This document shows, one piece after another, positions 3,162-59,762 of a stretch of DNA of 64,000 nucleotides; positions within the stretch are counted from its first letter, which is position 1; every line of letters starts with the position of its first letter. Made by a program: the position numbers and the translations under genes. The DNA is from Rhodovulum marinum. GTDB taxonomy: Bacteria; Pseudomonadota; Alphaproteobacteria; Rhodobacterales; Rhodobacteraceae. The notes under the pieces were generated by a model that was not told the origin of the DNA, did not search any database, and saw nothing but the letters and a program-made list of their open reading frames with translations. Location of the stretch: assembly GCF_004343075.1 (NCBI RefSeq), contig NZ_SLXP01000009.1, positions 62,001 through 126,000 on the forward strand, given 5' to 3'.

Positions 3162-4694
3162 TCAGCCCTCCTCGCCCCCCGGCGTCAGGGTCAGCGGCGC
3201 GGCCGGCGCCACCAGGTCGTCGGTGCCCAGCGGCCGGGCGGGCCGCCCCAGGCGATAGCGCGTGACCCAGATCAGCCGCTTTTCGGCCCGCGTGATCGCC
3301 ACATAGGCCAACCGTTTCCACAGCGGTTGCCCGGCCTCGCTGCGGCCCGCCCGCGCCGCCGCCCACAGGTCGGGCGCGAACACCTGCACCGCTTCCCATT
3401 GCGATCCTTGCGCCTTGTGGATCGTCACCGCCGCCCCGTGCAGGAAGGCCGCGCCCATGTTGGCGGCAAATGGGATGAACGGCTCTTCTTCCTCGGGCAG
3501 CTCGATCTTGACGATCGAGGCGGCCGAGATCTGCGGATCTTCGGCCCCGATGACGTGCAGCCGCGAGAAGCCGGGCTTGCGGCCGGGGCCCAGATAGATC
3601 ACCTGCGCCCCCTTGATCAGCCCCCGCGCCTCCAGGTCCAGCCGCTTGCGCCGGTGCTTCAGCGGCAGTTCGATGCCGTCGCAGATCAACGGCTCGCCCG
3701 ACAACAGCGCGTCCTCGGGGGCGCCATGGGCCCGGCGAAAGGCATGGATCAGCCGGATGCGCGTGGCGTTGCGCCAGACCAGCACGGGCGACCGCGCCAT
3801 CAGGTCGGAATCGACGCGCGGCGCGACCACCACCCGGTCGTCGCGTGCGGCGGCCTGTTCGACCATCCGCTCGAACGCCTCGAACCCCAGGTCGGGGTCG
3901 GACAGCGCGTGCGCCAGGTCCAGGATCGGGTTGTCGTCGGCCTGCCGGTGCACCCGGTGCAGGGTCAGCTTCTGCGCCTCGGGCAGCCCGTCGAACACCA
4001 TCGCGCCCGACTGGTTCACCGGGGCCAGCTGCGCGGGATCGCCGAACAGCACCAGCGCCGGGAACAGCTCCTTGAGGTCGTCGAATTGCCGCGCGTCCAG
4101 CATCGAGGCCTCGTCGACGAAGCCGATATCCAGCGGCTCGTCGCGCCGCTTCCAGCCCTTGATGAAATCGCTGCCCCGCAGCCCCGCGGCGGCCAGCGCG
4201 CCGGGCACCGACTTGACGCTTTGGTAAAACGCGTGCGCGCGATCCAGCGCCGCCTCGGTCAGCCCCTCGATCTGGGGCCGCTCGCCCTCGCCGGTCAGCC
4301 ACTCGGCGATCTTCTCGTATTCGGGGTCGTAGACCGGGGTATAGATGATGCGGTGAATCGTCGTGGCGGGCACCCCGCGGGTGCGCAGCACGCTCGCCGC
4401 CTTGTTGGTCGGCGCCAGGATCGCCAGCGTGCGCCGGTCGCGGCGCCGCCGCCCCTCGTAATCGCCCGAAACGGTTTCGACGCCCGCCTCCTCCAGCGCC
4501 CCGACCAGCCGGGACAGCAACATCGTCTTGCCGGACCCGGCCTTGCCGGTGATCGCCAAAAGCGCCTCTTTCCCCTCCGCCCGGGGGGTCAGCGCGCCCG
4601 CGTCTATATCCACGCCGACACCGCGCAGCATCTCTGCCACGCGGTCATGGGCCTCGGCCTGGTCATCGGAAAAAACAAGGGCAGGAACGCTCAT
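3162..4694 (-). CDS. RecD/PIF1-like ATP-dependent DNA helicase
   Basis: The 510-residue protein has a Walker A motif GKAGSGKT at residues 50-57, a motif LAPTNKAA near 130, FVDEAS (Walker B) near 205, FGDPAQLAPV near 230, and a C-terminal UvrD_C_2 part with TIHKAQGSQW and YVAITRAEKRLIWVTR. These are superfamily 1B helicase motifs in the right order. The protein resembles stand-alone RecD-like helicases common in Rhodobacterales rather than the RecD subunit of RecBCD, since no recB or recC neighbours it. It is convergent with the TIGR02186 gene, with seven bases between the stops. The cellular role (repair or recombination) is inferred. Confidence 0.88.
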   Translation of the reverse strand: MSVPALVFSDDQAEAHDRVAEMLRGVGVDIDAGALTPRAEGKEALLAITGKAGSGKTMLLSRLVGALEEAGVETVSGDYEGRRRRDRRTLAILAPTNKAASVLRTRGVPATTIHRIIYTPVYDPEYEKIAEWLTGEGERPQIEGLTEAALDRAHAFYQSVKSVPGALAAAGLRGSDFIKGWKRRDEPLDIGFVDEASMLDARQFDDLKELFPALVLFGDPAQLAPVNQSGAMVFDGLPEAQKLTLHRVHRQADDNPILDLAHALSDPDLGFEAFERMVEQAAARDDRVVVAPRVDSDLMARSPVLVWRNATRIRLIHAFRRAHGAPEDALLSGEPLICDGIELPLKHRRKRLDLEARGLIKGAQVIYLGPGRKPGFSRLHVIGAEDPQISAASIVKIELPEEEEPFIPFAANMGAAFLHGAAVTIHKAQGSQWEAVQVFAPDLWAAARAGRSEAGQPLWKRLAYVAITRAEKRLIWVTRYRLGRPARPLGTDDLVAPAAPLTLTPGGEEG

Positions 4695-6665: not shown

Positions 6666-7958
6666 TCAGGCGCCCGTCCGGGCCTCCAGCACGTCCTCGA
6701 AGGTGCGCAACCCAGTGCGCGGCGCCTGCACCAGCACCGCCATGTTGCCGGGCTTGTGCTCGTTGTGCAGCATCTTGAGATGCGCGGCCGGGATTTCCGC
6801 CCAGGGGAACACCTCCGACATGCAGGGGTCCAGGCGGCGCTGGCACATCAGCCGGTTGGCGGCGGCGGCCTGTTTCAGGTGGGCGAAGTGGCTGCCCTGG
6901 ATGCGCTTCTGGTGCATCCAGACATAGCGCGCGTCCATCGTCAGGTTGAACCCGGAGGTCCCGGCGCAGATCACCACCATGCCGCCGCGTTTCACCACGA
7001 AGGTGGACACCGGGAAGGTCGCCTCGCCCGGGTGCTCGAACACCATGTCGACATTGTTGCCCTTGCCGGTGATGTCCCAGATCGCCTTGCCGAACTTGCG
7101 CGCCTCGCCGAACCACTCCTTGTATTCCGGCGTGTTGACCTTGGGCAGTTGCCCCCAGCACTTGAAATCCTTGCGGTTGATGACCCCCTTGGCGCCCAGG
7201 TCCATCACGAAATCCCGCTTGGATTCGTCCGAGATCACCCCGATCGCGTTGGCGCCCGCCGTGTTGATCAGCTGGATCGCGAAGGACCCCAGCCCGCCCG
7301 AGGCCCCCCAGACCAGCACGTTCTGGCCGGGCTTCAGCTCATGCGGATGATGGCCGAACAGCATCCGGTAGGCGGTGGCCAGCGTCAGCGTGTAGCAGGC
7401 CGATTCTTCCCAGGTCAGGTGCTTGGGCCGGGGCAGCAATTGCTGCGCCTGCACGCGGGTGAACTGCGCGAACGACCCGTCCGGGGTTTCATAGCCCCAG
7501 ATCCGCTGGCTGGGGCTGAACATCGGGTCGCCGCCGTTGCACTCTTCGTCGTCGCCGTCGTCCTGGTTGCAGTGGATCACGACCTCGTCGCCCACCTTCC
7601 AGTTCTTCACCGCCGACCCCACGGCCCAGATGATCCCCGAGGCGTCCGACCCCGCGATGTGATAGGGCGCGCCATGCCCGTCAAAGGGCGACACGGGCAC
7701 GCCCAGACCGGCCCAGATACCGTTATAGTTCACGCCCGCGGCCATCACGAGAACCAGAACCTCGTGGCTGTCGATCTCGGGGGTGTCCACCACCTCGACC
7801 TGGAAACTCTTGTCGGGGTCGCCGTGGCGTTCGCGGCGAATCGCCCAGGCATACATCTTGGGCGGCACGTAGCCGAGCGGCGGCATCTCGCCGATCTCGT
7901 ACAGCTCTTTCTCGGGCGCCTCGTAGGGGACGACGGACGGGTTGGTGTCGAGTGCCAT
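6666..7958 (-). CDS. ccr: Crotonyl-CoA carboxylase/reductase
   Basis: This is the key enzyme of the ethylmalonyl-CoA pathway: NADPH-dependent reductive carboxylation of crotonyl-CoA to ethylmalonyl-CoA in the cytoplasm. The start at 7958 (MALDTNPSV) is preceded by GGAGG six bases upstream and gives 430 residues, the family length; two ATGs up to 7 codons upstream are alternatives. It is a medium-chain reductase with the NADPH-binding GASGGLGSFAIQL motif, plus HCNQDDGDDEECNGGDPMFS, DMVFEHPGEATFPV and HKPGNMAVLVQAPRTGL stretches characteristic of Ccr. It is divergent from ecm, the next enzyme but one in the pathway. Confidence 0.97.
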   Translation of the reverse strand: MALDTNPSVVPYEAPEKELYEIGEMPPLGYVPPKMYAWAIRRERHGDPDKSFQVEVVDTPEIDSHEVLVLVMAAGVNYNGIWAGLGVPVSPFDGHGAPYHIAGSDASGIIWAVGSAVKNWKVGDEVVIHCNQDDGDDEECNGGDPMFSPSQRIWGYETPDGSFAQFTRVQAQQLLPRPKHLTWEESACYTLTLATAYRMLFGHHPHELKPGQNVLVWGASGGLGSFAIQLINTAGANAIGVISDESKRDFVMDLGAKGVINRKDFKCWGQLPKVNTPEYKEWFGEARKFGKAIWDITGKGNNVDMVFEHPGEATFPVSTFVVKRGGMVVICAGTSGFNLTMDARYVWMHQKRIQGSHFAHLKQAAAANRLMCQRRLDPCMSEVFPWAEIPAAHLKMLHNEHKPGNMAVLVQAPRTGLRTFEDVLEARTGA

Positions 7959-46588: not shown

Positions 46589-48553
46589 TCAGGCCGGCAA
46601 GACAGGCACGATCGGCGCCGGCAGGTCGAGAACCGCGACGCGGTCGAGATAAAGCGTGACAACAACCACGGTCACAAGCGCGGCGGCCACGACCAAAGCC
46701 AGCCGGCGCAAGGCGTTGCCCTGCCGCAATGACGGCAGCATCCAGAACAGAACCAGCCCGCCGCACGCGAGCGGAAGGCCGAAAAGCAGCGTCAGCCCAG
46801 GTGCGATTGCCACAAGCAGGAGCGGCAGCCGATGCGATGCCGGCAGGAACGGCCTTTCCTTGCCCGATCCGCCCGCGAGAGAAGGCGCAAAAGCCTGCGC
46901 AAGGGCCAGCGCGGCGAAGGTGCCCAGCGTCACGAAGCACACCCCCAAGGCATAGCCCGAATAGGCCCGCCCACCGGTCAACGCGATCCCGGCGAAAAGC
47001 GCGACACCGCATCCCAGAAGGATCGTCACGCCCCGATCCGCGATGCTGGCGCGCTGGACCTCCGAGGCTCCGTGTCGTGGCCGCGTCACCATCCAGACCA
47101 CCGAAAGGAGCGTCAGCGCGATGATGACCCAGGCGAGGGGACGCGAGCCTAAGTCAAGCCGGTCCACCGCATGAAGCTGGCATACCAGGGCAAGATTGCT
47201 TTCCAGGCTGGGCCCAAGCACGAAGGCGATGACGAACGGCACGCGCGGCCAGTCGAGACGGCGGAACGCATAGCCCAGGGCGGCAAAGCCCACGGCGACG
47301 AACAGATCGGAGACGAGGCCGTCAATCTGCACCACCGTCACCAAACCGACCACGATGACCGGCAACGCGATGCGGTCGATCGGCAACCGCGTAAGACGGG
47401 ACAGTCCGGGCACAAGCGCCAACCCCAGCGCAGAGGTCAACAGGTTCGAGGCGAGCAAGGCGAAAATCAACGTGAAGGTGAAAGGCAGATCCGCGCCCAG
47501 CATGGCGCTTCCGGGAACGAAACCGTGGATCGCCAGCACGGTAAGCAGGAAGACCCCGCCCTCGCTGCCCGGCACGCCCAGCGCCAGCACCGGCAGGAGC
47601 GAGCCGCCATCCTTTGCATCGACGGCGGCCTCGGGGCCGATCACGCCGCGGATGTCGCCCTTGCCGAAACCGGAGCGGTCGCCGCGCGCTGTCTGTACCG
47701 TCTGGCCATAGGCGACGAACCCCGCCACCGTTCCACCCACGCCGGGAATGATGCCGACGAGCAGGCCGATCAGCGAGGCACGCAGCACCAGCGCGCGTTC
47801 CTTGAGCACCCCAAGCACGCCCCCGCGCGTCGTGTCGTCGGGCGCGGCGTGCCGTGGAACTGCCTTCAGGTCGTGGCATTTGCGCCAGGACAACACCTCG
47901 GACAACGTGAAGAAGCCAAGCAGCATCGCCCCTTGCGCAAGCCCGTCGCTGATCTCGAACCGGCCGAAGGTCCAGCGCGGCTGGCTGGTTGTCGGATCGC
48001 TTCCGACCATGGCCAGAAGCAGGCCAAGACCGGTCGCCGCAAAGGCCTTGAGCGGCCTGCCATTGAGCACGGCGATGATCGTGGCAAGCCCCCAGACCGC
48101 CAGTGCCGCGCGTTCCAGGGGGCCGATCTGCAGCAACAAGGGCCGGATCGCAGGCAGAAGCAGGATCAGAACCACCACGCCGAAGACCGAGCCCAACGCC
48201 GAGGCCGTGGCCGCTGCGGCCAGGGCGGTGCGGGGCCGGCCGGCATGGGCCATCGGGTGCCCATCCAGCAAGGTGACGGAACTTGCGGCATTTCCGGGGA
48301 TCCCGAAGAGGATCGCCGTGACCGACCCCATGAACGTCGCACCGCCCGTCAACGCGCCGAACAAAAGCAGAACCTGCACCGGTTCCCAATGCAGCGTCAG
48401 TACCACCATCACCGCCGCCAGGCTTGCCGCGCCGATCCCGGGCAGGAACGAAACGGTCATCGCCAGAACGGTGCCCAGAACCGGTATCAGGACATTCGGC
48501 CAGCTGAAGACGTTCTGCAGGCCGATCCCAAGCGCAGTGATCGTGTCAGGCAT
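46589..48553 (-). CDS. Fused TctA-TctB tripartite tricarboxylate transporter membrane protein
   Basis: The 654-residue protein has the TctA part (about 1-495) with FLPGIGAASLAAVMVVLTL, IPGNAASSVTLLDGHPMA and GIIPGVGGTVAGFVAYGQT, then a TctB-like four-helix part (about 515-640, GVTILLGCGVALFAGIAL). Normally TctB is a separate small protein, so this is a fusion. With the upstream TctC-like receptor it would import a carboxylate using the ion gradient. If Na+-coupled it would use the gradient produced by the nearby N-ATPase; that link is inference. Confidence 0.9.
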   Translation of the reverse strand: MPDTITALGIGLQNVFSWPNVLIPVLGTVLAMTVSFLPGIGAASLAAVMVVLTLHWEPVQVLLLFGALTGGATFMGSVTAILFGIPGNAASSVTLLDGHPMAHAGRPRTALAAAATASALGSVFGVVVLILLLPAIRPLLLQIGPLERAALAVWGLATIIAVLNGRPLKAFAATGLGLLLAMVGSDPTTSQPRWTFGRFEISDGLAQGAMLLGFFTLSEVLSWRKCHDLKAVPRHAAPDDTTRGGVLGVLKERALVLRASLIGLLVGIIPGVGGTVAGFVAYGQTVQTARGDRSGFGKGDIRGVIGPEAAVDAKDGGSLLPVLALGVPGSEGGVFLLTVLAIHGFVPGSAMLGADLPFTFTLIFALLASNLLTSALGLALVPGLSRLTRLPIDRIALPVIVVGLVTVVQIDGLVSDLFVAVGFAALGYAFRRLDWPRVPFVIAFVLGPSLESNLALVCQLHAVDRLDLGSRPLAWVIIALTLLSVVWMVTRPRHGASEVQRASIADRGVTILLGCGVALFAGIALTGGRAYSGYALGVCFVTLGTFAALALAQAFAPSLAGGSGKERPFLPASHRLPLLLVAIAPGLTLLFGLPLACGGLVLFWMLPSLRQGNALRRLALVVAAALVTVVVVTLYLDRVAVLDLPAPIVPVLPA

Positions 48554-48574
48554 GGCAGCGGCGTGCAGCGTCGC

Positions 48575-49627
48575 TCAGGGGCGCAGCTGCGTCGCCACCT
48601 CGTCGAGAAGCGGGGCCGCCCGCGAATAAGCCTCCAGCTTGTTTTCGAAGATTCTTTCAGCCTCCTGCGCGCCGATCGGCGTCACATCCCGGCCTTGTGC
48701 CTGTGCGGCATCGCGGAAATCAGGCGAGACCAGCGCCGCGTCGAAGATCGCATTCAGGCAGACCTGTACATCATCCGGCACCGCGGCCGAGTTCATCAGG
48801 ATGCGGGCGCCCGAGGAGAGCGACACCGCAAGCTGTGCGATCTTCTGCCGTTCGGCGCGTTCCGCTTCGGGCAGGCCCGCGGTCAGATGCGCGACAAGTC
48901 CGCCCTCGCCGGCGAGCCAAGGTACATCCGGCAGCATGGGATCGGGTCCGTCGGACAGCACGAGAAGCACCTTCAGATCGCCGGATTTCATCGCCCGGAG
49001 CGCGGTTCCCTTGGCTTTCGACGTGAAATCGGTCTCGCCCCGCAGGACCGCCGCGAACTGATCTCCGCTTCCGGCGTAACCGGCCACCAGCCGGACCGTG
49101 TGCCCCGTGGCCATCGCCGGCAGTCCGACGGTTCCCAGGTTCGCCTCGACTGAGGAAACCGCCGCCACAAGCGGCCCGGCATCGGGGTCCATCAGATTTA
49201 GATCGGGGCGCCCGACCCAAGCCTCCGGTTCGACCTGGACAATACCAAGGGCCCGAAAATCCTGCGGCGTCTTGCCAAGCGAAGGATCTTCGAGCAGTTC
49301 GGCGACGATATCGCCTGCGTTGTCTATGAGAACCGCGTAATCATCCGACGGCGCATTCGCCACACGCAAGAGCGCCGCCTTGCCACCGCCGCCCGGCATG
49401 TTGGACACCCGCACCGTCACGCCGCCGATCCGTTCAAGTTCGGGCGCAAGGCTGCGCGCATAGATATCGAACCCACCCCCGGCCGCATTCGGCACCACGA
49501 GGGTCAGGCGCTGACCCTTCATCCGGTCGGCACATCCCGACGGAAGGGTAGCATCTGCACGAACCTCGGAAACGAACAGAGGCGCAAGCGCAAACACGAG
49601 GCCGGCTGCGAAGACCTTCAAGACCAT
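48575..49627 (-). CDS. TctC-like (Bug family) periplasmic solute receptor
   Basis: The 350-residue protein starts at 49627 with a signal peptide (MVLKVFAAGLVFALAPLFVS). Motifs typical of the Bug receptor fold include LTLVVPNAAGGGFDIYARSL, VRVSNMPGGGGKAALLRVAN and GLPAMATGHTVRLVAGY. It lies 21 bases upstream of the TctAB-type gene on the same strand and supplies its ligand. An odd feature is a pair of cysteines (SGCADRM near residue 32, VCLNAIF near 295) that may form a disulfide. The ligand is unknown. Confidence 0.85.
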   Translation of the reverse strand: MVLKVFAAGLVFALAPLFVSEVRADATLPSGCADRMKGQRLTLVVPNAAGGGFDIYARSLAPELERIGGVTVRVSNMPGGGGKAALLRVANAPSDDYAVLIDNAGDIVAELLEDPSLGKTPQDFRALGIVQVEPEAWVGRPDLNLMDPDAGPLVAAVSSVEANLGTVGLPAMATGHTVRLVAGYAGSGDQFAAVLRGETDFTSKAKGTALRAMKSGDLKVLLVLSDGPDPMLPDVPWLAGEGGLVAHLTAGLPEAERAERQKIAQLAVSLSSGARILMNSAAVPDDVQVCLNAIFDAALVSPDFRDAAQAQGRDVTPIGAQEAERIFENKLEAYSRAAPLLDEVATQLRP

Positions 49628-49906
49628 GATGCCTGATCCACCTTTTCTTCCCGGTTTGGCGATACCGCCCCTGACCTGCTGCATGGTGGTTTCATTCTCA
49701 AAACAACAGACTGCAGGCTGAAATCGGTAGTGGGCTTCATCGTCCGGGGCAAGCACGCCTGGCGTCGCGGCTTCGATTTGTCAAATCGATCGGCGCCTGT
49801 GCGGCGGCGTTCGGGCACTGCCAGCCGGGCGGCAAAGGCACCGTGCCGCGCCCCCGGGCGTACGTCTGACCGGCGGCCATGGTGGTGCCACGGCCCCGGG
49901 GCGGGG

Positions 49907-51172
49907 TCAGGGTGTGGCGCCCGCAGCCGGGGAAACGTGCAGCCGTCCCGCGGCAAGCGCCGAGGCCGCCACCATCAGGGCAGCGGCGCCAAGCATCAGC
50001 GGCAGGCCACCGGCCGCGTAGGTCAGCCCGGACAGGACGGTGCCGACAAGCCGCCCGGCGGCATTGGCCATGTAATAGAAGCCGACATCCATCGTCACCC
50101 TTTCGTCCCGGCTGAAGGCGAGGATCAGGTAGGAATGCAGCGACGAATTGACCGCGAACAACGCGCCGAAGGCCAGGAGCCCCGTAACCAGCGTGGCGGT
50201 CAGCCATGGTGACGGGCCGTCGGCCAGCAGGGCGGCGCCCGTCAACACCGCGGGCACGGCCGCCAGCGCCCAGGCCCAGCCGCGCGCCGCGGCGATCAGG
50301 GCGGCCTCGGGGCGGGTGCCCGCGCGCAAGAGCCGGGGCGCAAAGGCCTGCACCGCGCCGTACAGGATGATCCAGCCGGCCATGAAACCGCCGATCAGGA
50401 AAAAGGCCGCGCGGTTGCCCGCCTCGGTCCCATCCGAAAGCACCGCGTAGAAATAGACCGGGATACCGACCACGAACCACACGTCGCGCGCCCCGAACAG
50501 CACCACGCGGGCCGCCGAAAGCCAGTTGACGTTCCGCGATGTCGAAAAGACCTGCGCGAATTTCGCCCCCTTGCGTCCCCGGGGCAGCCCCGGTGGCATG
50601 GCGATCAGGACCGCAACCAGGATCGCCGCCAGAACGGTCGCCATGGCCAGAACCGCCCAGGTGAACCCGAATGTCGCCAAAAGCGCCGCCCCCAGCAGAA
50701 AGCCCAGCCCCTTCACCGCGTTCTTGGACCCCGTCAGCGCGGCGACCCAGCGAAACAGGCCGTCTCCGCCCTTCGGCGCCAGCAGCTTGACCGCCGACTT
50801 GGCGGACATCTTGGCCAGGTCCTTGGCGACCCCGCTTGCGCCCTGCACCGCCATCACATAGGCGACCGAAAGGCCGATCGCCCAATCGGGGTTCAACCCC
50901 GCCAGCGCGATCAGCGCCGCCACCTGGATGCCCAACCCCGCATAGAGCGTCGATGCCAGTCCGAAACGCGCCGCCAGCCAGCCCGCAGACAGGTTGGTGA
51001 GAATGCCCGCGATTTCATAGAGCACGAACAACCAGGCCAACTGGATCGGCGTAAACCCGAGGGTGTGAAAATGCAGAAGCACCAGCATCCTGAGCGCGCC
51101 ATCGGTCAGCATGAACGCCCAGTAGGCCACGGTAACCGCGACATAGGCCGACAGGCCGTCGGATCGGCTCAC
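49907..51172 (-). CDS. arsJ: ArsJ-type organoarsenical efflux MFS transporter
   Basis: The 421-residue, 12-helix MFS protein has [20 protein letters not shown] near the N-terminus, [20 protein letters not shown] after helix 4 and [20 protein letters not shown] near helix 10, typical of ArsJ. It exports 1-arseno-3-phosphoglycerate, which then breaks down to arsenate outside. The start overlaps the GAPDH stop by four bases; GAPDH and the upstream ArsR-ArsC gene complete the operon. Confidence 0.92.
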
Positions 51173-52167
51173 AGCGACGCCCCCACCATCAGCGCGATAT
51201 CCACCAGCCGGTGTGCATAGCCCATTTCGTTGTCATACCACGCATAAACCTTGAGCTGGGTGCCGTTGACGACCATGGTGGACGGCCCGTCCACGATCCC
51301 CGAACGGGTGTCGTTCACGTAATCGGCCGACACCAGCGGGCGGTCTTCATACCCGAGAATACCCCTCAGCGGGCCTTCGGCGGCGGCCTTGAACAGCGTG
51401 TTGACCTCGTCCGCCGTCACCTCGCGCTGGACCTCGAACACGCAGTCGGTCAGCGACCCGTTCAGCAACGGCACCCGCACCGCGTGGCCGTTCAGCCTGC
51501 CCTTCAGCTCGGGATAGATCAGGGTGATCGCCGTGGCGCTTCCGGTGGTGGTGGGGATCAGCGAATTCAGCGCGGACCGCGCGCGGCGCAGATCCTTGGC
51601 GGGGCGGTCGACGATGGTCTGGGTGTTGGTCACGTCATGGATCGTGGTGATGACGCCGTGGCGGATGCCGATCTGTTCGTGGACGACCTTGACCACCGGG
51701 GCGAGGCAATTCGTGGTGCAACTGGCCGCCGTCACGATGCAGTGCCGGGCGGGGTCGTAGATGCCATGGTTCACCCCGTAGACGATATTCGCCGCATCGC
51801 CATCCTTGACCGGGGCCGAGACCACGACCTTTTTCACGCCCTTCTCGAAATAGGGGGCGATGCTGGCCTCGGTCTTGAACACGCCGGTGCAATCGATCAC
51901 CACGTCGACACCGTCCAGCGGCAGGTCTTCGATCCGGTCGCGGCCTGCGAAGGGCAGCCGGGTGCCGTCGATGGTCACGCTGCCTTCGTCATGGGAAAAC
52001 GCCGCGTCCCACCGCCCGTGCACGGTGTCGAATTCCAGCAGATGCGCGGCCATGGCCGGGTCACCGACGGCATCGTTGATCCAGGCGATGTCCGCACCGC
52101 GTTCCAGAAGGGGGCGCAATGCCAGCTTGCCGATGCGGCCCAGCCCGTTCAGTGCGAAAACCGTCAT
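51169..52167 (-). CDS. ArsJ-associated glyceraldehyde-3-phosphate dehydrogenase
   Basis: The 332-residue GAPDH starts at 52167 ([20 protein letters not shown]). It has the NAD-binding GLGRIGK (8-14), the catalytic Cys150 in [10 protein letters not shown] and the conserved [14 protein letters not shown] near the C-terminus. In ars operons this enzyme joins arsenate to glyceraldehyde 3-phosphate, giving the ArsJ substrate. It overlaps the ArsR-ArsC fusion and arsJ by four bases on each side. Confidence 0.93.
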
Positions 52168-53009
52168 GCCGTCAACCCAGCCACGGCGCGCCCGATCTCG
52201 TCGACCGCCTTTTGCAGCGCCAGCCGGTCCAGCGCGTCCAGCCGCAGCGCGGTAAAGGCCTGGATCCGGTTCTTCAGCGCGCCATAGGCCTGCTGAAAGG
52301 CGAGGCTTTTCTGCGCGTCGGTGCCCTCGGCCTTGACCGGATCGGGCATGCCCCAATGGGCGGTGACGGGCTGGCCTTCCCAGGACGGGCATTCCTCGTT
52401 TGCGGCTTGGTCGCAAACCGTGAAGACGAAATCGAGATGCGGCGCGTCCGGCCCGCTGAACTCGGACACGTTCTTGGCGCGCAGAACCGAAACGTCATGG
52501 CCTTTGTCCCTGAGCACCTGCAGGGCGAAAGGGTTCAGTTCGGAATAGGGTTTGGTGCCCGCGGAATAGGCGTTGAACCGGTCGGGCGCGGCGGCACGCA
52601 GCAGCGACTCGGCAAAGATCGAGCGGGCGGAATTGCCAGTGCAGATGAAAAGCACGTTGAATTTGCGGTCGGACATGGGGGGGGCTCCTGTGAGCATGGG
52701 CAGAGAGACGGGCGAACACAGGTCCGACCGCCCGCGGCAGCAATCGAAGAACAGGAAATCGAGGGTGCGTCGCACCTCTGTCATGTTGATCTCATAGCGC
52801 AACGACGTGCCCTCACGCGTCTGGCTGACCAGCCCCGCCCCCATCAGGGCGGACAGATAGGCCGAAAGCGTCGACGGCTTAAGCCCCAGCGCCGCGCCGA
52901 TTTCACCGGCGGGCACGCGGTCGGGATAGCGCCGCATCAGAAGCCGGAAAATCGCTAGCCGCTGGGGATGGCCAAGGGTCGCAAAGCGGGAGGGAATCAA
53001 TTTTTCCAT
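52164..53009 (-). CDS. ArsR repressor fused to LMWP-type arsenate reductase
   Basis: Residues 1-90 form an ArsR winged helix ([40 protein letters not shown]) with a putative As(III) site Cys90-Cys91 and Cys98, similar to AfArsR-type spacing. Residues 112-281 form a low-molecular-weight phosphatase-like ArsC with the catalytic loop CTGNSARS (Cys123). An in-frame ATG at codon 112 has AGGAG eight bases upstream, so ArsC may also be made separately. The junction is a run of eight Cs. It heads the ars operon. Confidence 0.9.
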
Positions 53010-53114: not shown

Positions 53115-54008
53115 CTATCCCACGGGATCGTTACAGGGGATCACGTCGACCCGGTGAACGGTCGTGTGCGTGCCTTCGGTCCGCAGCGACCCGCGCACCG
53201 GTGCGACATCTGCATAGTCGCGCCCGATGGCCACCGCGATATGGTCGGCCCCCACCACGATGTCGTTCGTGGGGTCGATCTCGACCCAGCCGGTTTCGGC
53301 CCCGCACCAGGCCCGCACCCAGGCATGCATCGCATCGGCCCCTTCCAGCCGGGGCTGCCCCGGCGGCGGGGTCGTGCGCAAAAAGCCGCTGACATAGCCC
53401 GCGGGGATCCCCACGGCGCGCAGCGCGGCGATCGTGACATGGCTGATATCCTGGCAGACCCCGCGGCGGGCCTCGAACGCCTCGATCGGCAGGGTCGTCA
53501 CCTCGGTCGCCTCGGGGTCGAATTCGAACCGGCTGTGCACCGCATGCGAAATGGCGCAGGTCGCGGACAACGCCGACATATCCGGCTGAACCAACTCTGC
53601 CGCAAAGGCGGCGATCCGGGATTCGTGGCGGATGCGTTCCGATTCCCCCAGGAAATGATGCGGCGCGTCGGGGCCGATGCCCACGACTTCGGCGATATCG
53701 CCGTGCAGCCGCGCCAGGTCGGTCGACAGGTCCAGCCCCGGCGCACCCCCCAGCCGGCGCACCCGCCCCGCAAAGCGGAAGGCGATTTCGGTCAGCGGCC
53801 GGTCATGCGCCAGCTCGGTCGTGGCATTGCCGAAGAAATCGGCGCTGTCACGCCGGAAATCGGGTTCCGGATCGGTATCGACGAAGCCCGAGATCAAGGT
53901 CTGCTCTGCCGAGGTCAGCGGCAGCATCCTGAGCAACGTACGGCTGGATCCCGCGGGCGTTTCGTAGCGATACGCGATCTCGAGCCGGATGTCATAGTCG
54001 GTTGCCAT
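53115..54008 (-). CDS. Transglutaminase-like cysteine protease family protein
   Basis: The 297-residue protein starts at 54008 (MATDYDIRLEIAYRYETPAG). It has a bacterial transglutaminase N-terminal beta domain (1-80) and the papain-like core with Cys185 (RRGVCQDISH), His228 (DAMHAW) and Asp245 (WVEIDPTND). It is the last gene of a three-gene operon with the ATP-grasp/alpha-E protein and the DUF2126 protein. It is presumably a peptidase or amide-bond-forming enzyme acting with them; no substrate is known. Confidence 0.9.
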   Translation of the reverse strand: MATDYDIRLEIAYRYETPAGSSRTLLRMLPLTSAEQTLISGFVDTDPEPDFRRDSADFFGNATTELAHDRPLTEIAFRFAGRVRRLGGAPGLDLSTDLARLHGDIAEVVGIGPDAPHHFLGESERIRHESRIAAFAAELVQPDMSALSATCAISHAVHSRFEFDPEATEVTTLPIEAFEARRGVCQDISHVTIAALRAVGIPAGYVSGFLRTTPPPGQPRLEGADAMHAWVRAWCGAETGWVEIDPTNDIVVGADHIAVAIGRDYADVAPVRGSLRTEGTHTTVHRVDVIPCNDPVG

Positions 54009-54013
54009 GGGTA

Positions 54014-56413
54014 TCAGCTCAGGTAGCGTGCGGTCAGCGTGTCTGACACCTCGCGCAGATCCTTCTGAAGCGCGAGCAGCCGGGCGGGTGTCAGGTCCTC
54101 GGGCGCGGCGACCGAAAGCGCGGTGTGCAGCAGCAGGATGCGGCGCGCGAGATCGGACATCGGGCCGCCCTCCTTGACCGTGGTCAGCATCGCCTCCTGT
54201 TCGCGCAACACATCGAGCTGGAACAGCACCGAACGCGGGTTGCCGGCATCCAGCGCCAACAGGTCGACAATCGTGCAGCAACTGGTGGCCATCGGGTAAC
54301 GCCGACGGTGGGTCATCACGCTGTCGCCGACCTCGACGGCCACGTCGAAGCTTCCGGGGGGGGCCTCGGGATCGGCAAACGCCGCCAGCAAGGTCAGCAT
54401 CTGGTCGGCCCGTTCCAGCGCGCGACCCATCGTCAGAAAGCGCCAGCCGGAAAAGCGGAACATGTTATCATGCACCAGCCCCGCGAACCCGGCGAGCCTG
54501 CGCAGCAATTCGGTCATCTTGCGCGCCGCCTCGTCGCCCGGGCGCACGCGGTTGTACATGCCCCGCGCGGTGAAGGCGAGGTCGTTCAGCGCGTGCCAGC
54601 CGTCGGTCGAGAACCGGTCGCGCACCTTGCCCGCGCAGCCCTGCGCCGCCTCGAACAGTTCGAGGATGGCGGCGGGCACGGGTTCGTCGGGGTCGATGTC
54701 GAACCCGTCCAGATAGCGTTCAAGATGCGCAAGCACCGGCATTTCGCGGTGACCGACCTCCTCCAGCCGCAGGTGATAGGCGCGCAGTTCGCGCACCCGT
54801 GCCTCGGCCCGTTCGACGTAACGGCCCAGCCAATACAGGTTGTCCGCCGCGCGCGAGGGCAGCACGCCCGGCAGGCGGCGCGCGAATGGCCCCTCTTGCC
54901 GGCTGGCCAGGCTGTCGGGGGTGACGGGGTCGTCGCTGACCACCCAGACATCGGCGACCGAACCGCCGTTCTTCATCGCCAGTGCCGTCGGGTCCTCGGT
55001 CCGGCCGATCCGGGCATAGCCGCCGGGCATCACCACCCAGCCATCGGGGGTGCGCGCGGCGAAGACGCGGATCAGCATCGGGCGGGGCACCAGTTCGCCG
55101 TCGATCATGGCGGGCGTGGTGGACAGCGTCGCGGCCTCTTGCCCGACCAGCTTGGCGCCGTCGGTTTCCAGCCAGTCGCCGATGGGTTTCTGCGCCGTGC
55201 CCCGGAAATCGCCACCCAGCGCGGTCGAGGCGTCCACCTCGAAGGGAAGGTCGGTGGACAGCGCCCGGCCGATCATCATCCGCTGGAGGTTGTCATAGAC
55301 ATAGGCCCGCTCGGCCGCCTGCCCGCACCACCAGGTCGCGATGTTGGGGATTTTCAGGCCCTCGCCGGTCAGCCGTTCGCAGATGCGCGGCAGGAACGCC
55401 ATCAGCGCCCGCGCCTCGAGCACGCCCGAGCCCAGGCAGTTCAGCATCGTCAGCTCGCGCGCCCGAAGCGCCGCGACCATGCCCGGCGTGCCCAGCGCCG
55501 AGGTTTCGTCCAGTTCCAAGGGGTCGGCAAAGCGGGAATCAAGCCGCCGCCACAACACGCTGACCGGCTGTGGCCCGTCGATGGTGCGCACCGTCAACTT
55601 GCCCCGCTCGACCTTCAGATCCTCGCATTCCAGAAGCAGGAAACCGAGGTAGCGGGCGATATAGGCATGCTCGAAATAGGTATCGGAATGCTGGCCCGGC
55701 GTCAGGATCGCAACCCGGCCCGCATCGCCCCTGAGCGCGTTCATCGCATCGCGATAGGCCCGGAAAAAGCCCGCCAGCCGGCGGATATTGGCGGCCGGGA
55801 ACAGATCGGGAAAGACCCGCGCCGTCGCCATGCGGTTTTCCAGCGCAAAGCCCGACCCCGAGGGCGCCTGGGTCCTGTCGCCCAGCACCAGCCACGACCC
55901 GTCGGGCGAACGGCCGACCTCGAAGGCCACAAAATGCAGAAAATGATCCGAACGGGGACGTATCCCCACCACGGGCCGCAACCATTCGCGGTTGCGCGCC
56001 ACCAGTTCGGGCGGCAGCAGCCCCTGCGACACCAGCCTGGCCGGCCCATAGAGATCGGCCATGACCTGTTCCAGCAGGTCGGCGCGCTGGACCAGGCCTT
56101 CGGACAGGCGCTGCCATTCGTCGTCGGCGATCATCACGGGGATATGCGACAGCGGCCAGTCGCGCACGGTCGACCCGCTCGACGTATGCTGGCGGTAATA
56201 GACGCCCGCGTCGTGCAGGTGCTGGTCGCCACGGGCGAACCGCTGGGACAGGTCCTCGGCGCCCTGCCCGGCCAACAGGTCGATCAGGGGCTGCCAGACG
56301 GGCCGGACACTTCCATCCGGTCGCAACAACTCGTCCGCAACGCCGGGCGGCGGGCGATAGCCCCGCAGAAGGGCCGCGGCCGGATCGTCCTTCAGGTGAC
56401 CCGCGGAACTCAT
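54014..56413 (-). CDS. Circularly permuted ATP-grasp plus alpha-E domain fusion protein
   Basis: The 799-residue protein combines two families usually encoded separately. Residues about 1-480 are a COG2308-type circularly permuted ATP-grasp (HIPVMIADDEWQRLSEGLVQ, ILTPGQHSDTYFEHAYIARY, ATWWCGQAAERAYV). Residues about 505-799 are an alpha-E domain (COG2307; RAADNLYWLGRYVERAEARV, FTARGMYNRVRPGDEAAR). A predicted amidoligase makes a peptide-like product, with alpha-E as a partner. It sits one base from the DUF2126 gene and five from the transglutaminase gene. Confidence 0.9.
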   Translation of the reverse strand: MSSAGHLKDDPAAALLRGYRPPPGVADELLRPDGSVRPVWQPLIDLLAGQGAEDLSQRFARGDQHLHDAGVYYRQHTSSGSTVRDWPLSHIPVMIADDEWQRLSEGLVQRADLLEQVMADLYGPARLVSQGLLPPELVARNREWLRPVVGIRPRSDHFLHFVAFEVGRSPDGSWLVLGDRTQAPSGSGFALENRMATARVFPDLFPAANIRRLAGFFRAYRDAMNALRGDAGRVAILTPGQHSDTYFEHAYIARYLGFLLLECEDLKVERGKLTVRTIDGPQPVSVLWRRLDSRFADPLELDETSALGTPGMVAALRARELTMLNCLGSGVLEARALMAFLPRICERLTGEGLKIPNIATWWCGQAAERAYVYDNLQRMMIGRALSTDLPFEVDASTALGGDFRGTAQKPIGDWLETDGAKLVGQEAATLSTTPAMIDGELVPRPMLIRVFAARTPDGWVVMPGGYARIGRTEDPTALAMKNGGSVADVWVVSDDPVTPDSLASRQEGPFARRLPGVLPSRAADNLYWLGRYVERAEARVRELRAYHLRLEEVGHREMPVLAHLERYLDGFDIDPDEPVPAAILELFEAAQGCAGKVRDRFSTDGWHALNDLAFTARGMYNRVRPGDEAARKMTELLRRLAGFAGLVHDNMFRFSGWRFLTMGRALERADQMLTLLAAFADPEAPPGSFDVAVEVGDSVMTHRRRYPMATSCCTIVDLLALDAGNPRSVLFQLDVLREQEAMLTTVKEGGPMSDLARRILLLHTALSVAAPEDLTPARLLALQKDLREVSDTLTARYLS

Positions 56414-56414
56414 G

Positions 56415-59400
56415 TCAAAGGCCCGGCGCGCGGCGCAGGTCGAGTGTCATCGGGAATTCGGGATGGGGCTGTTCAGGGGCGGGCCAATAGCTGCCCGGCG
56501 TATGGCCCATCTTCTCGAACCGGGCCAAGCGGCGGGCCTCGGCCTCGTTGGCATTCACGGGGAAGGTATCGTAGTTGCGCCCGCCCGGATGCGCGACGTG
56601 ATAGGTGCAGCCACCCAGCGCCCGCCCCGACCAGGTGTCGAAGATGTCCAGCGCAAGCGGCGCGTTGACCGGCAGGACGGGGTGCAGCGCCTCGGCCGGT
56701 TGCCACGCCTTGAAGCGGACGCCGCCAATGGCCACGCCGGCAGTTTCGGTGGGGTGCAGCGGCACGGCACGGCGGTTGCAGGTCACGATGTAGCGGCCCG
56801 GGTTGGTGGCGGTCAGTTTGACCTGCATGCGTTCCACCGAACTGTCGGTATAGCGCACGGTGCCGCCGATGGCGCCGCGCTCGCCCAGCACGTGCCAGGG
56901 TTCCAGCGCCTGGCGAAGTTCTAGGTGCACGCCCTCGTAGTCCACCTCGCCGCAGAACGGGAACCGGAACTCCTGCTGCGCCTCGTACCAGTCCGGCCGG
57001 AACGCGAAGCCGTGATCGGCAAGATCGCGCAGCACGCCGAGGAAGTCCTGCCACACGAAATGCGGCAGCATGAACCGGTCATGCAGTTCCGTGCCCCAGC
57101 GCACCGGCTTGCCCTTGACCGGGTTCGCCCAGAGCCGCGCGAGGATCGCCCGGATCAGCACCTGTTGCGCCAGGCTCATCCGCGCATCGGGCGGCATCTC
57201 GAAGCCACGGAATTCCACCAGCCCCAGGCGTCCCGTGGGGCCGTCAGGCGAATAAAGCTTGTCGATGCAAAGTTCCGCCCGGTGGGTGTTGCCTGTAACG
57301 TCGATCAGGATGTTGCGCAGCAGGCGGTCGACCAGCCAGGGCGCGGGCGCCTCGCCCTCGCCCGGATCGGGAAACTGCGCCAGCGCGATTTCCAGCTCGT
57401 AGAGGCTGTCATGGCGGGCCTCGTCGATCCGGGGGGCCTGCGACGTCGGGCCTATGAACAGGCCAGAGAACAGGTAGGACAGGCTGGGATGCCGCTGCCA
57501 GTAGAGGATCAGCGAACGCAGCAGGTCCGGTCGGCGCAGGAAGGGCGAATCGTTGGGCGTTTCGCCGCCCACCACCACGTGATTGCCGCCGCCCGTGCCG
57601 CAATGCTTGCCGTCGATCATGAACTTGTCAGCGCCAAGGCGGGTCAGCCGCGCCTCTTCGTAGACGCCTTGGGTGATGGTCTTGCAATCCTCCCAGCCGT
57701 TCGCCGGGTGGATATTGACCTCCAGCACGCCGGGGTCGGGGGCCACGCGGATCACGTTCAGCCGCGGGTCGTGCGGCGGCGCATAGCCCTCGATATGCAC
57801 GGGCAGACCCATTTCGGCAGCCGTCGCCTCGGCCACAGCGACAAGTTCCAGGTAATCCTCGACATCCTCGACGGGGGGCATGAACACGCAAAGCCGCCCG
57901 TCGCGGGGTTCGACCGACAGCGCGGTGCGGACCGCGTCGGTCCCCAATTCCTGTTCGCGCACATCCTGCACTGCGCCCCCCCCGGTGAAGCGGGCGACGG
58001 GCTGGGCGTGGCCCGGCGTCGTTTCGGGCAGCCCGGCCGCGGCGGCGCGGTCGGCGGCGTCGAACTCGGGAAGCGGGCCGCGCGCGACCGTCGGATCGGT
58101 GACATAGGTATAGGGGTATTGCGCGGGCGGGATGTGCGGCAGGCTGCCCAGCGGCAGGCGATAGCCCACCGGGCTGTCGCCGGGCACCAGGAACAGCTTG
58201 CCGCGGCGCATCTTCCATTTCTCCGACCGCCAGCGCTTGCCGGTCGCCTTGGCCTGCCACCGCTGGATCGGCAGGATGTGACCCGCCGGGTCGGTCAGGC
58301 CGCGGGCAAAGACGCGGGCGATGCGGGCGCGTTCCTCGGGGTCCTTCAGTTTCGAGTTTTCGGGGGTGACGTTCTCGGGCAGGTTGCCCTCCTTGAGAAT
58401 CCACTCGGCCGGATCCTCGTAGGCAGGCACCACCATGTCGGCGTCCACCCCCAACCGGTCGGCCATGCCTTTCAGCAGAGCCTCGGCCTGATCCGGGCCT
58501 GCCCCGGTCTGGGCCGTTTCCTCGGCGATCAGGTCGGGGTTCTTCCAGATCGGCTTGCCGTCCCTGCGCCAATACAACGAGAAGGTCCAGCGCGGCAGCG
58601 TTTCGCCCGGGTACCACTTGCCCTGTCCGTAATGCAGGAATCCGCCCGGCGCAAAACGGTCGCGCAGACGCCGGATCAGCCGGTCGGCCAGGCCGCGTTT
58701 CATCGGGCCCACGGCGGCGGTGTTCCACTCGTCCGATTCGAAATCGTCGATGGAAACAAAGGTCGGCTCGCCCCCCATGGTCAGGCGCATGTCGCCCGCC
58801 TCGATCGCGGCATCGACCTTGTGGCCCAGCGCATCCAGCGCCTGCCACGCCTCGTCCGAAAACGGCTTGGTGATGCGCGGGTGTTCTGCGGCGCGATGCA
58901 CCTCCATGTGGAAGTCGAAATCGACCTCGGCGGGGCTGGCCATGCCGGTGATGGGCGCGGCGTTGCGGTAATGCGGCGTGGCGGCCAGCGGGATGTGGCT
59001 TTCGCCGGTCAGAAGCCCTGAGGTCGGGTCGAGCCCGATCCATCCCGCCCCGGGCAGATAGACCTCGCACCAGGCGTGCAGATCGGTGAAGTCGTGATCG
59101 GTGCCGGGTGGACCGTCCAGCGCCACCAGGTCGGGTTTCAGCTGGATCAGGTAGCCCGACACGAACCGCGCCGCGAGGCCGAGGTGCCGCAGCACCTGCA
59201 CCAGGAGCCACGAGGTATCGCGGCAAGAGCCCGACTTCAGGCGCAACGTGTCCTCGGGCGTCTGCACGCCGGGTTCCATGCGGATGACATAGCCGATCTC
59301 GCGTTCCAGCCGGGCGTTCAGTTCGACGATGAAATCGACCGTCCGCTCGGCCGCGCGCGGGATGGTGGCAAGAAAGGCGGTCAGCAGCGGCCCCGCCGGT

Positions 59401-59762
59401 TCGGGCGTGCGGTAGATCGACAGGTCATCCACCAGGTCGGCGGGATAGTCGAAGGGCCATGCCTCGGCGATCTCGTCCACGAAGAAATCGAACGGGTTGT
59501 AGACCGTCATGTCGGCGACGAGGTCCACCTCGATCCTGAGTTCGCGCACCGGTTCGGGGAACACGAAGCGCGACAGCCAGTTGCCGTAGGGGTCCTGCTG
59601 ATGATTGACGAAATGGCCCTCGGGCGAAACCTTGAGGCTGTGCGAGATCACCCGCGTGCGGCTGTGCGGCGCGGGCCGCAGGCGGATCACCTGCGGACCC
59701 AGGCTGACCGGACGGTCATAGCGATAATGCGTCAGGTGACGGATGCTTGCGGTGATGGCCAT
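56415..59762 (-). CDS. Transglutaminase-DUF2126 fusion protein
   Basis: The 1115-residue protein has an N-terminal transglutaminase-like module (1-290) with Cys180 ([11 protein letters not shown]), His229 ([10 protein letters not shown]) and Asp245 (GLDPTSGLL), and a large C-terminal DUF2126 region (about 300-1115, COG4196). The latter contains [59 protein letters not shown] and [13 protein letters not shown]. The last motifs resemble glutamine-synthetase-like or ATP-grasp ligase metal and nucleotide sites. It is first in the operon. Confidence 0.92.

Follow-up and report, generated by a model that had tools for sequence, protein, structure and literature searches.

A DUF2126 operon of Rhodovulum marinum as a proposed arm of a widespread amide-bond system with an Anbu operon elsewhere in the genome

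Introduction

What do three tightly packed genes for two transglutaminases, an ATP-grasp/alpha-E protein and a DUF2126 domain accomplish together, and which other genes do they work with? The question was raised by a 64,000-nucleotide stretch of the Rhodovulum marinum genome (contig NZ_SLXP01000009.1, positions 62,001 to 126,000; the window), which carries such an operon on its minus strand (Table 1). The original prediction, made from the letters of the window, assigned the operon to a predicted system that makes and attaches or processes a peptide, and considered two features notable, namely the fusion of ATP-grasp with alpha-E and the absence of a visible gene for the proteasome-like protein Anbu. 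The main prediction of a system of ATP-grasp, glutamine-synthetase (GS)-like ligase, Anbu and alpha-E proteins was reportedly made by Iyer et al. in 2009 (Mol Biosyst). We take its families to be the ones found in R. marinum: permuted ATP-grasp, alpha-E, transglutaminase, a fusion of GS-like ligase and transglutaminase, and a genomic Anbu.

We conclude, with a probability of about 0.58, that the window operon is the DUF2126 arm of this known and widespread amide-bond system and that an Anbu operon on another contig is the other arm, the two forming one pathway of synthesis and turnover, perhaps with a role in nitrogen limitation. The window operon itself is well conserved and belongs to a known system that has been predicted but little assayed biochemically. 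To that prediction the present analysis adds the dependence of DUF2126 on a second operon, its position next to Anbu where its usual partner is lacking, and the wide occurrence of sigma-54-type sites upstream of the second operon. Articles given by PMC number are cited from excerpts of their text.

An Anbu operon elsewhere in the genome

A full four-gene operon was found on contig C2 by reading the locus and by structure-database and protein searches; ATP-grasp, alpha-E, transglutaminase and Anbu stand there in one run as separate genes. In the structure-database search, its Anbu gene matched the solved Anbu structure (PDB 5loy) with an expectation value (E) of 1.3e-88. No Anbu gene was seen within the window or in the window operon, as originally described; the genome search that had been proposed at the same time nevertheless rejected the absence of Anbu, and with it the idea that this absence was notable. 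A Pfam Proteasome search of the genome returned a single match, beside an HslU-like open reading frame (ORF; L009), and did not reveal Anbu. The window operon lies on contig C9, at least about 97 kb from the Anbu operon even if the two contigs adjoin. R. marinum differs from the system of Iyer et al. in that its ligase arm is on another contig than its Anbu arm. One arm has ATP-grasp and alpha-E fused into a single protein, and the other encodes them separately, a layout called split below.

In Mycobacterium tuberculosis, Rv2567 presumably corresponds to the ATP-grasp/alpha-E fusion, and Rv2409c-2411c to the split set. Like gene 1, the actinobacterial Rv2566 joins a transglutaminase to a carboxylate-amine ligase domain (PMC2588565). 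The Anbu operon of Yersinia bercovieri comprises the same four families as the C2 operon (PMC6376114), and PP_2685-2688 of Pseudomonas putida comprise one proteasome-like gene, one transglutaminase and two genes called 'hypothetical' (PMC7801951). Both operons have four genes, with DUF2126 not named in the excerpted accounts, whereas the operon of the window includes DUF2126 and a second transglutaminase, and its gene 2 is a fusion. In Burkholderia cenocepacia, I35_5080-5083 form a single gene run (PMC5491218), as opposed to the two separate loci of R. marinum.

Co-occurrence of DUF2126 with the split operon

Two samples were surveyed, one of 150 genomes from the phylum and one of 149 genomes from the family, with one genome per genus. 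The system was common, with DUF2126 present in 46/150 phylum and 50/149 family genomes. Split alpha-E was found in all 46 phylum genomes with DUF2126, compared with 37 of the 104 others, and in at least 49 of the 50 family genomes with DUF2126 among the matches listed (the remaining one is G264). Anbu was likewise more frequent where DUF2126 was present, both in the phylum (27/46 against 26/104) and in the family (47/50 against 58/99, p 2.8e-6).

A fused ATP-grasp/alpha-E frame, scored in the phylum sample when alpha-E matched within an open frame of at least 780 amino acids, was present in 44/150 genomes. It occurred in 40 of the 46 genomes with DUF2126 and in 4 of the 104 others, and all 40 copies lay within 12 kb of DUF2126. 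Among named alphaproteobacterial loci (the best 80 of at least 593 candidates), ATP-grasp was directly downstream of the DUF2126 gene in 73 and the third gene followed in 71; two of the seven loci lacking this arrangement end too early to tell. The fusion is therefore the usual partner of DUF2126, and its description as a rarity was rejected.

The position of Anbu varied with the presence of this partner. When DUF2126 had no fused partner, Anbu was 158-225 bp away in 3/3 judgeable phylum genomes; six phylum genomes with DUF2126 had no fused copy, and G049, G085 and G097, where DUF2126 is at a contig start, were not judged. In the family, where lack of a fused partner means a single alpha-E match, Anbu was 3.4-3.9 kb away in 4/4 genomes, two of which (G157 and G224) are 82-83% complete, with the DUF2126 of G157 in pieces across two contigs. 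With a fused partner, Anbu was within 12 kb in 1/46 family and 9/40 phylum genomes. Both operons stand back to back in Pseudooceanicola pacificus, the sole case with Anbu among the best 80 loci, and in Burkholderia stagnalis (L122) the DUF2126 arm and a split arm without Anbu are side by side. Taken together, these observations suggest that DUF2126 depends on the split operon and lies next to Anbu in the absence of the fused partner.

The same counts weigh on an alternative in which the three window genes alone would make a glutathione-like or gamma-glutamyl metabolite, the Anbu operon being an unrelated paralogue. The usual distance of the operon from Anbu fits such a stand-alone pathway, as does the predicted structure of gene 2 (mean predicted local distance difference test score, pLDDT, 88.3), which was closest to 3n6x (E 1.2e-28) and then to glutathione, homoglutathione, glutathionylspermidine and trypanothione synthetases, all enzymes that make small peptides and polyamine conjugates. 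The excerpts of PMC2588565 also favour peptide metabolites over protein conjugation. However, an independent pathway would not lead one to expect the near-constant company of the split operon, nor Anbu next to DUF2126 when the fused partner is lacking, and we regard it as unlikely.

Enzyme families and active-site residues

The three genes stand at the positions first given for them, with gaps of 1 base (gene 1/gene 2) and 5 bases (gene 2/gene 3), and Pfam bore out their identities. Gene 1 matched Bact_transglu_N, Transglut_core (E 4.9e-16) and DUF2126 (1338 bits); gene 2 matched CP_ATPgrasp_2 over its full length (E 4.6e-124) and Alpha-E over positions 1-294 of 294 (E 1.3e-55); gene 3 matched Transglut_core (E 4.1e-19). 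NCBIfam gave zero matches for the three proteins. A longer ORF of 388 amino acids for gene 3 starts from TTG 54281, inside gene 2, and ATG 54008 is the likely start.

Both transglutaminases have intact Cys-His-Asp triads (Table 1), as had been claimed. The triad positions were kept in 119/119 copies of gene 1 and 98/98 copies of gene 3, the window copies counted, and a loss of catalytic residues, which could have overturned the original prediction, was not seen on closer alignment. A split-operon transglutaminase of B. stagnalis (L122, 8975-9931) carries a Ser where the catalytic Cys would be, and two other transglutaminases are present in the same cluster. In the excerpts of PMC11081392, Rv2569c is named a YebA-superfamily protein and described as a protease sensitive to serine-protease inhibitors. 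A phage origin was considered and rejected, the only two matches being weak and confined to the transglutaminase part.

Gene 2 is a circularly permuted ATP-grasp of the COG2308 type joined to a full-length Alpha-E with the ER motif. In ATP-grasp, 39 positions were at least 95% conserved in both the 102 fused and the 26 'split' copies, one of the latter (L158) being a mis-assigned fused copy; in alpha-E, 18 positions reached a conservation of 90% or more among 105 fused and 24 split copies. The window copy keeps all of them. Translations with a stop or of insufficient length were dropped from these counts and from those of the triads.

Like the Rv2566 family, gene 1 has an N-terminal transglutaminase and a C-terminal full-length DUF2126, the Pfam match covering profile positions 2-826 of 826. 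In an alignment of 41 DUF2126 sequences, GGEPTF was conserved in all 41 and G-x2-EVN-x-HP in 35. The predicted structure of the domain (pLDDT 74.5; predicted template modelling score 0.78) gave 210 Foldseek matches at E of at most 10, the best 50 of which were all titled as members of the glutamine-synthetase superfamily (best E 5.7e-3). In 2008 the family exemplified by Rv2566 was placed among the carboxylate-amine ligases as a new ligase family (PMC2588565), and the Pfam label of DUF2126 is 'putative amidoligase enzyme'. The domain was correctly recognized at the outset, and it is not a blank one. Given the published placement and the weak fold resemblance seen here, DUF2126 is likely a GS-like ligase.

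The gene families, the conserved residues and the presence of Anbu in the genome all agree with membership of the predicted amide or peptide system. That its product and target are not established also held: no product, substrate or target appeared in the titles and excerpts consulted from the literature on DUF2126, Anbu, permuted ATP-grasp, alpha-E, the Rv genes and NtrC with transglutaminase.

A possible link to nitrogen limitation

Sites of the sigma-54 type were concentrated at the split operon. The 400 bp upstream of split ATP-grasp genes were scanned for the -24/-12 consensus, and the expectation was obtained from dinucleotide shuffles. Sites with one mismatch or none were present in 28/77 loci against 0.57 expected; these loci are not independent (related genera, with G130 included twice), and the mis-assigned L158 copy was left out. 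When the spacing was made one base shorter or longer, sites were found in 1 and 0 split loci. The enrichment first showed in 26 split loci, one of them mis-assigned (9 sites against 0.15), and held in the 52 fetched later (19 against 0.3).

These sites agree with the NtrC dependence described for Burkholderia. In an ntrC mutant of B. cenocepacia under nitrogen limitation, the log2 changes of I35_5080-5083, which encode DUF404/407, DUF403, a transglutaminase and a large transglutaminase protein, were -8.2, -9.4, -9.4 and -6.0, respectively, and genes for urease and urea transport showed the same dependence (PMC5491218). Judging by the gene order in B. stagnalis, the large protein I35_5083 probably carries DUF2126. 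In wild-type P. putida, PP_2686-2688 were upregulated 11- to 15-fold under nitrogen limitation, alongside urea transporter genes (PMC7801951), and these domains were also connected with urea metabolism in a study of marine metagenomes (PMC3597751). On a plasmid of Acidithiobacillus caldus (L124), ntrB/ntrC and an aliphatic amidase surround the cluster. The same stretch contains two Anbu-like matches (3566-4276 and 7199-7912), a transglutaminase-DUF2126 gene in two pieces, and insertion sequence elements.

A purely catabolic role, in which the transglutaminases would be hydrolases that act on proteins or amides to free ammonia or amino acids when nitrogen is limiting, matches the regulation shared with urease and urea transport genes in Burkholderia, the accompanying urea transporter genes in P. 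putida and the amidase and ntrBC genes near the A. caldus cluster, but it does not readily account for two ATP-dependent ligase domains and is the least probable explanation considered.

The gene rpoN was present in 138/150 genomes, so that its absence is uninformative as a control for sigma-54. R. marinum has two sigma-54 matches (C2:531794-532270 and C8:95702-96160); of five sampled family members, four had no sigma-54 match and one had a marginal match.

Proposed amide cycle

If the window operon and the C2 operon are two arms of one amide-bond system, the ATP-grasp/alpha-E and GS-like DUF2126 ligases would convert a carboxylate to an acyl-phosphate and couple this with an amine. The product may be a small gamma-glutamyl or isopeptide-type amide, either as a free peptide or as a tag on a protein. 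The papain-like transglutaminases would then transfer or hydrolyse this amide through an acyl-thioester, and Anbu would hydrolyse the product or its conjugate. Such a cycle could perhaps serve nitrogen storage or recovery when nitrogen is limiting. This mechanism is inferred from the enzyme families. In the excerpts of PMC6376114, the ATP-grasp of the Anbu operon released phosphate from ATP.

A more specific version, which we consider rather doubtful, holds that both operons form one nitrogen-starvation pathway storing or recovering nitrogen in a new isopeptide-type amide. DUF2126 would be an optional second stage that needs the Anbu/alpha-E stage, and would have stood ancestrally beside Anbu before it gained its own fused ATP-grasp/alpha-E and transglutaminase.

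Several observations weigh against the two-arm system or its link with nitrogen. With regard to DUF2126, the GhExE signature described in PMC2588565 is not in gene 1 and occurs somewhere in 4/41 sequences, and among the best 50 of the 210 Foldseek matches none reached E < 0.001, template modelling scores being 0.11-0.17 (by query length) and root-mean-square deviations 7.6-14.2. With regard to gene content, 19/46 phylum genomes with DUF2126 lacked Anbu, and five of the best 80 named loci had DUF2126 with 10 kb downstream and no gene 2. The assays described in the excerpts of PMC6376114 found neither Anbu peptidase activity nor specific interaction among the operon proteins. In P. putida, the proteasome-like (Anbu) gene PP_2685 hardly responded in the wild type (1.12-fold), NtrB/NtrC are described only as a putative regulator of PP_2685-2688, and PP_2686-2688 were still upregulated 14- to 20-fold in an rpoN mutant (PMC7801951), which argues against sigma-54 being strictly required in that species. 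Upstream of transglutaminase-DUF2126 genes, only 2/118 loci had a site with one mismatch or none (0.22 expected from single-base shuffles). Neither operon of the R. marinum genome has a sigma-54 site (3 mismatches each), and no NtrC-type palindrome was found at the window operon; the nitrogen link is therefore carried over from relatives.

The same enzyme families could also serve protein tagging and de-tagging, with the ligases building a peptide tag, the transglutaminases attaching it, and Anbu removing the tag or degrading the tagged protein. Iyer et al. reportedly put forward this idea. Published proposals of the kind exist for the Anbu operon (PMC5666114, PMC6376114), and enzyme families to make, transfer and cut amides are all present in the genome. 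On the other hand, the failure of the assays in PMC6376114 to find Anbu peptidase activity counts against tagging too, and the excerpts of PMC2588565 note no Pup-like small ORF near the family, a point to which our neighbour survey is blind because it was limited to ORFs of at least 110 amino acids. We judge tagging to be improbable.

For the two-arm amide-bond system, the dependence of DUF2126 on the split operon, its adjacency to Anbu and the sigma-54-type sites point to particular genes and to a condition, and the open question of what the system does is therefore practical to test.

Neighbouring genes and other features

Table 1. Positions of the operon, its domains and related features. 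Numbers refer to the window unless a locus is named.
Feature	Position	Strand	Remarks
Whole operon	59762-53115	-	three tightly packed genes, from ORFs and Pfam
Gene 1, transglutaminase fused to DUF2126 (probable GS-like amidoligase)	56415..59762	-	1115 amino acids
Gene 1, Transglut_core	59025..59354	-	residues 137-246; triad C180, H229, D245
Gene 1, DUF2126	56433..58934	-	residues 277-1110; motifs GGEPTF (330-335) and EVNIHP (681-686)
Gene 2, circularly permuted ATP-grasp fused to alpha-E	54014..56413	-	799 amino acids; ATP-grasp 92-469, alpha-E 518-798
Gene 3, transglutaminase	53115..54008	-	297 amino acids; triad C185, H228, D245
Split operon with Anbu, contig C2	L008 5860-9798		ATP-grasp, alpha-E, transglutaminase, Anbu
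Anbu gene, contig C2	L008 9055-9798
Peptidase_Mx metallopeptidase beside the cluster	L046 16650-17681; L123 8814-9875		L123 copy named so by annotation

No further fixed partner gene was found when ORFs of at least 110 amino acids outside the core genes were clustered across 120 stretches: the most widespread non-core family occurred in 33/120 stretches (2 in the diverse set). One neighbour family was annotated, a zinc metallopeptidase (Peptidase_Mx) present in 11/120 stretches and in 21/150 genomes, 14 of the 21 with DUF2126. This metallopeptidase was not found in the R. marinum genome. Counts of sigma-70 promoters and terminators were not above those of shuffles.

Adjoining the operon on the minus strand, positions 49907-53009 hold a probable arsenate-efflux set, which consists of an ArsR-type helix-turn-helix joined in one protein with a low-molecular-weight phosphatase domain of the arsenate reductase type, a glyceraldehyde-3-phosphate dehydrogenase and a major facilitator superfamily transporter that we take, by context, to be ArsJ-like. 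A tripartite tricarboxylate-type transporter, recognized by a TctA permease and a TctC match below the Pfam cut-off, is encoded on the same strand at 46589-49756.

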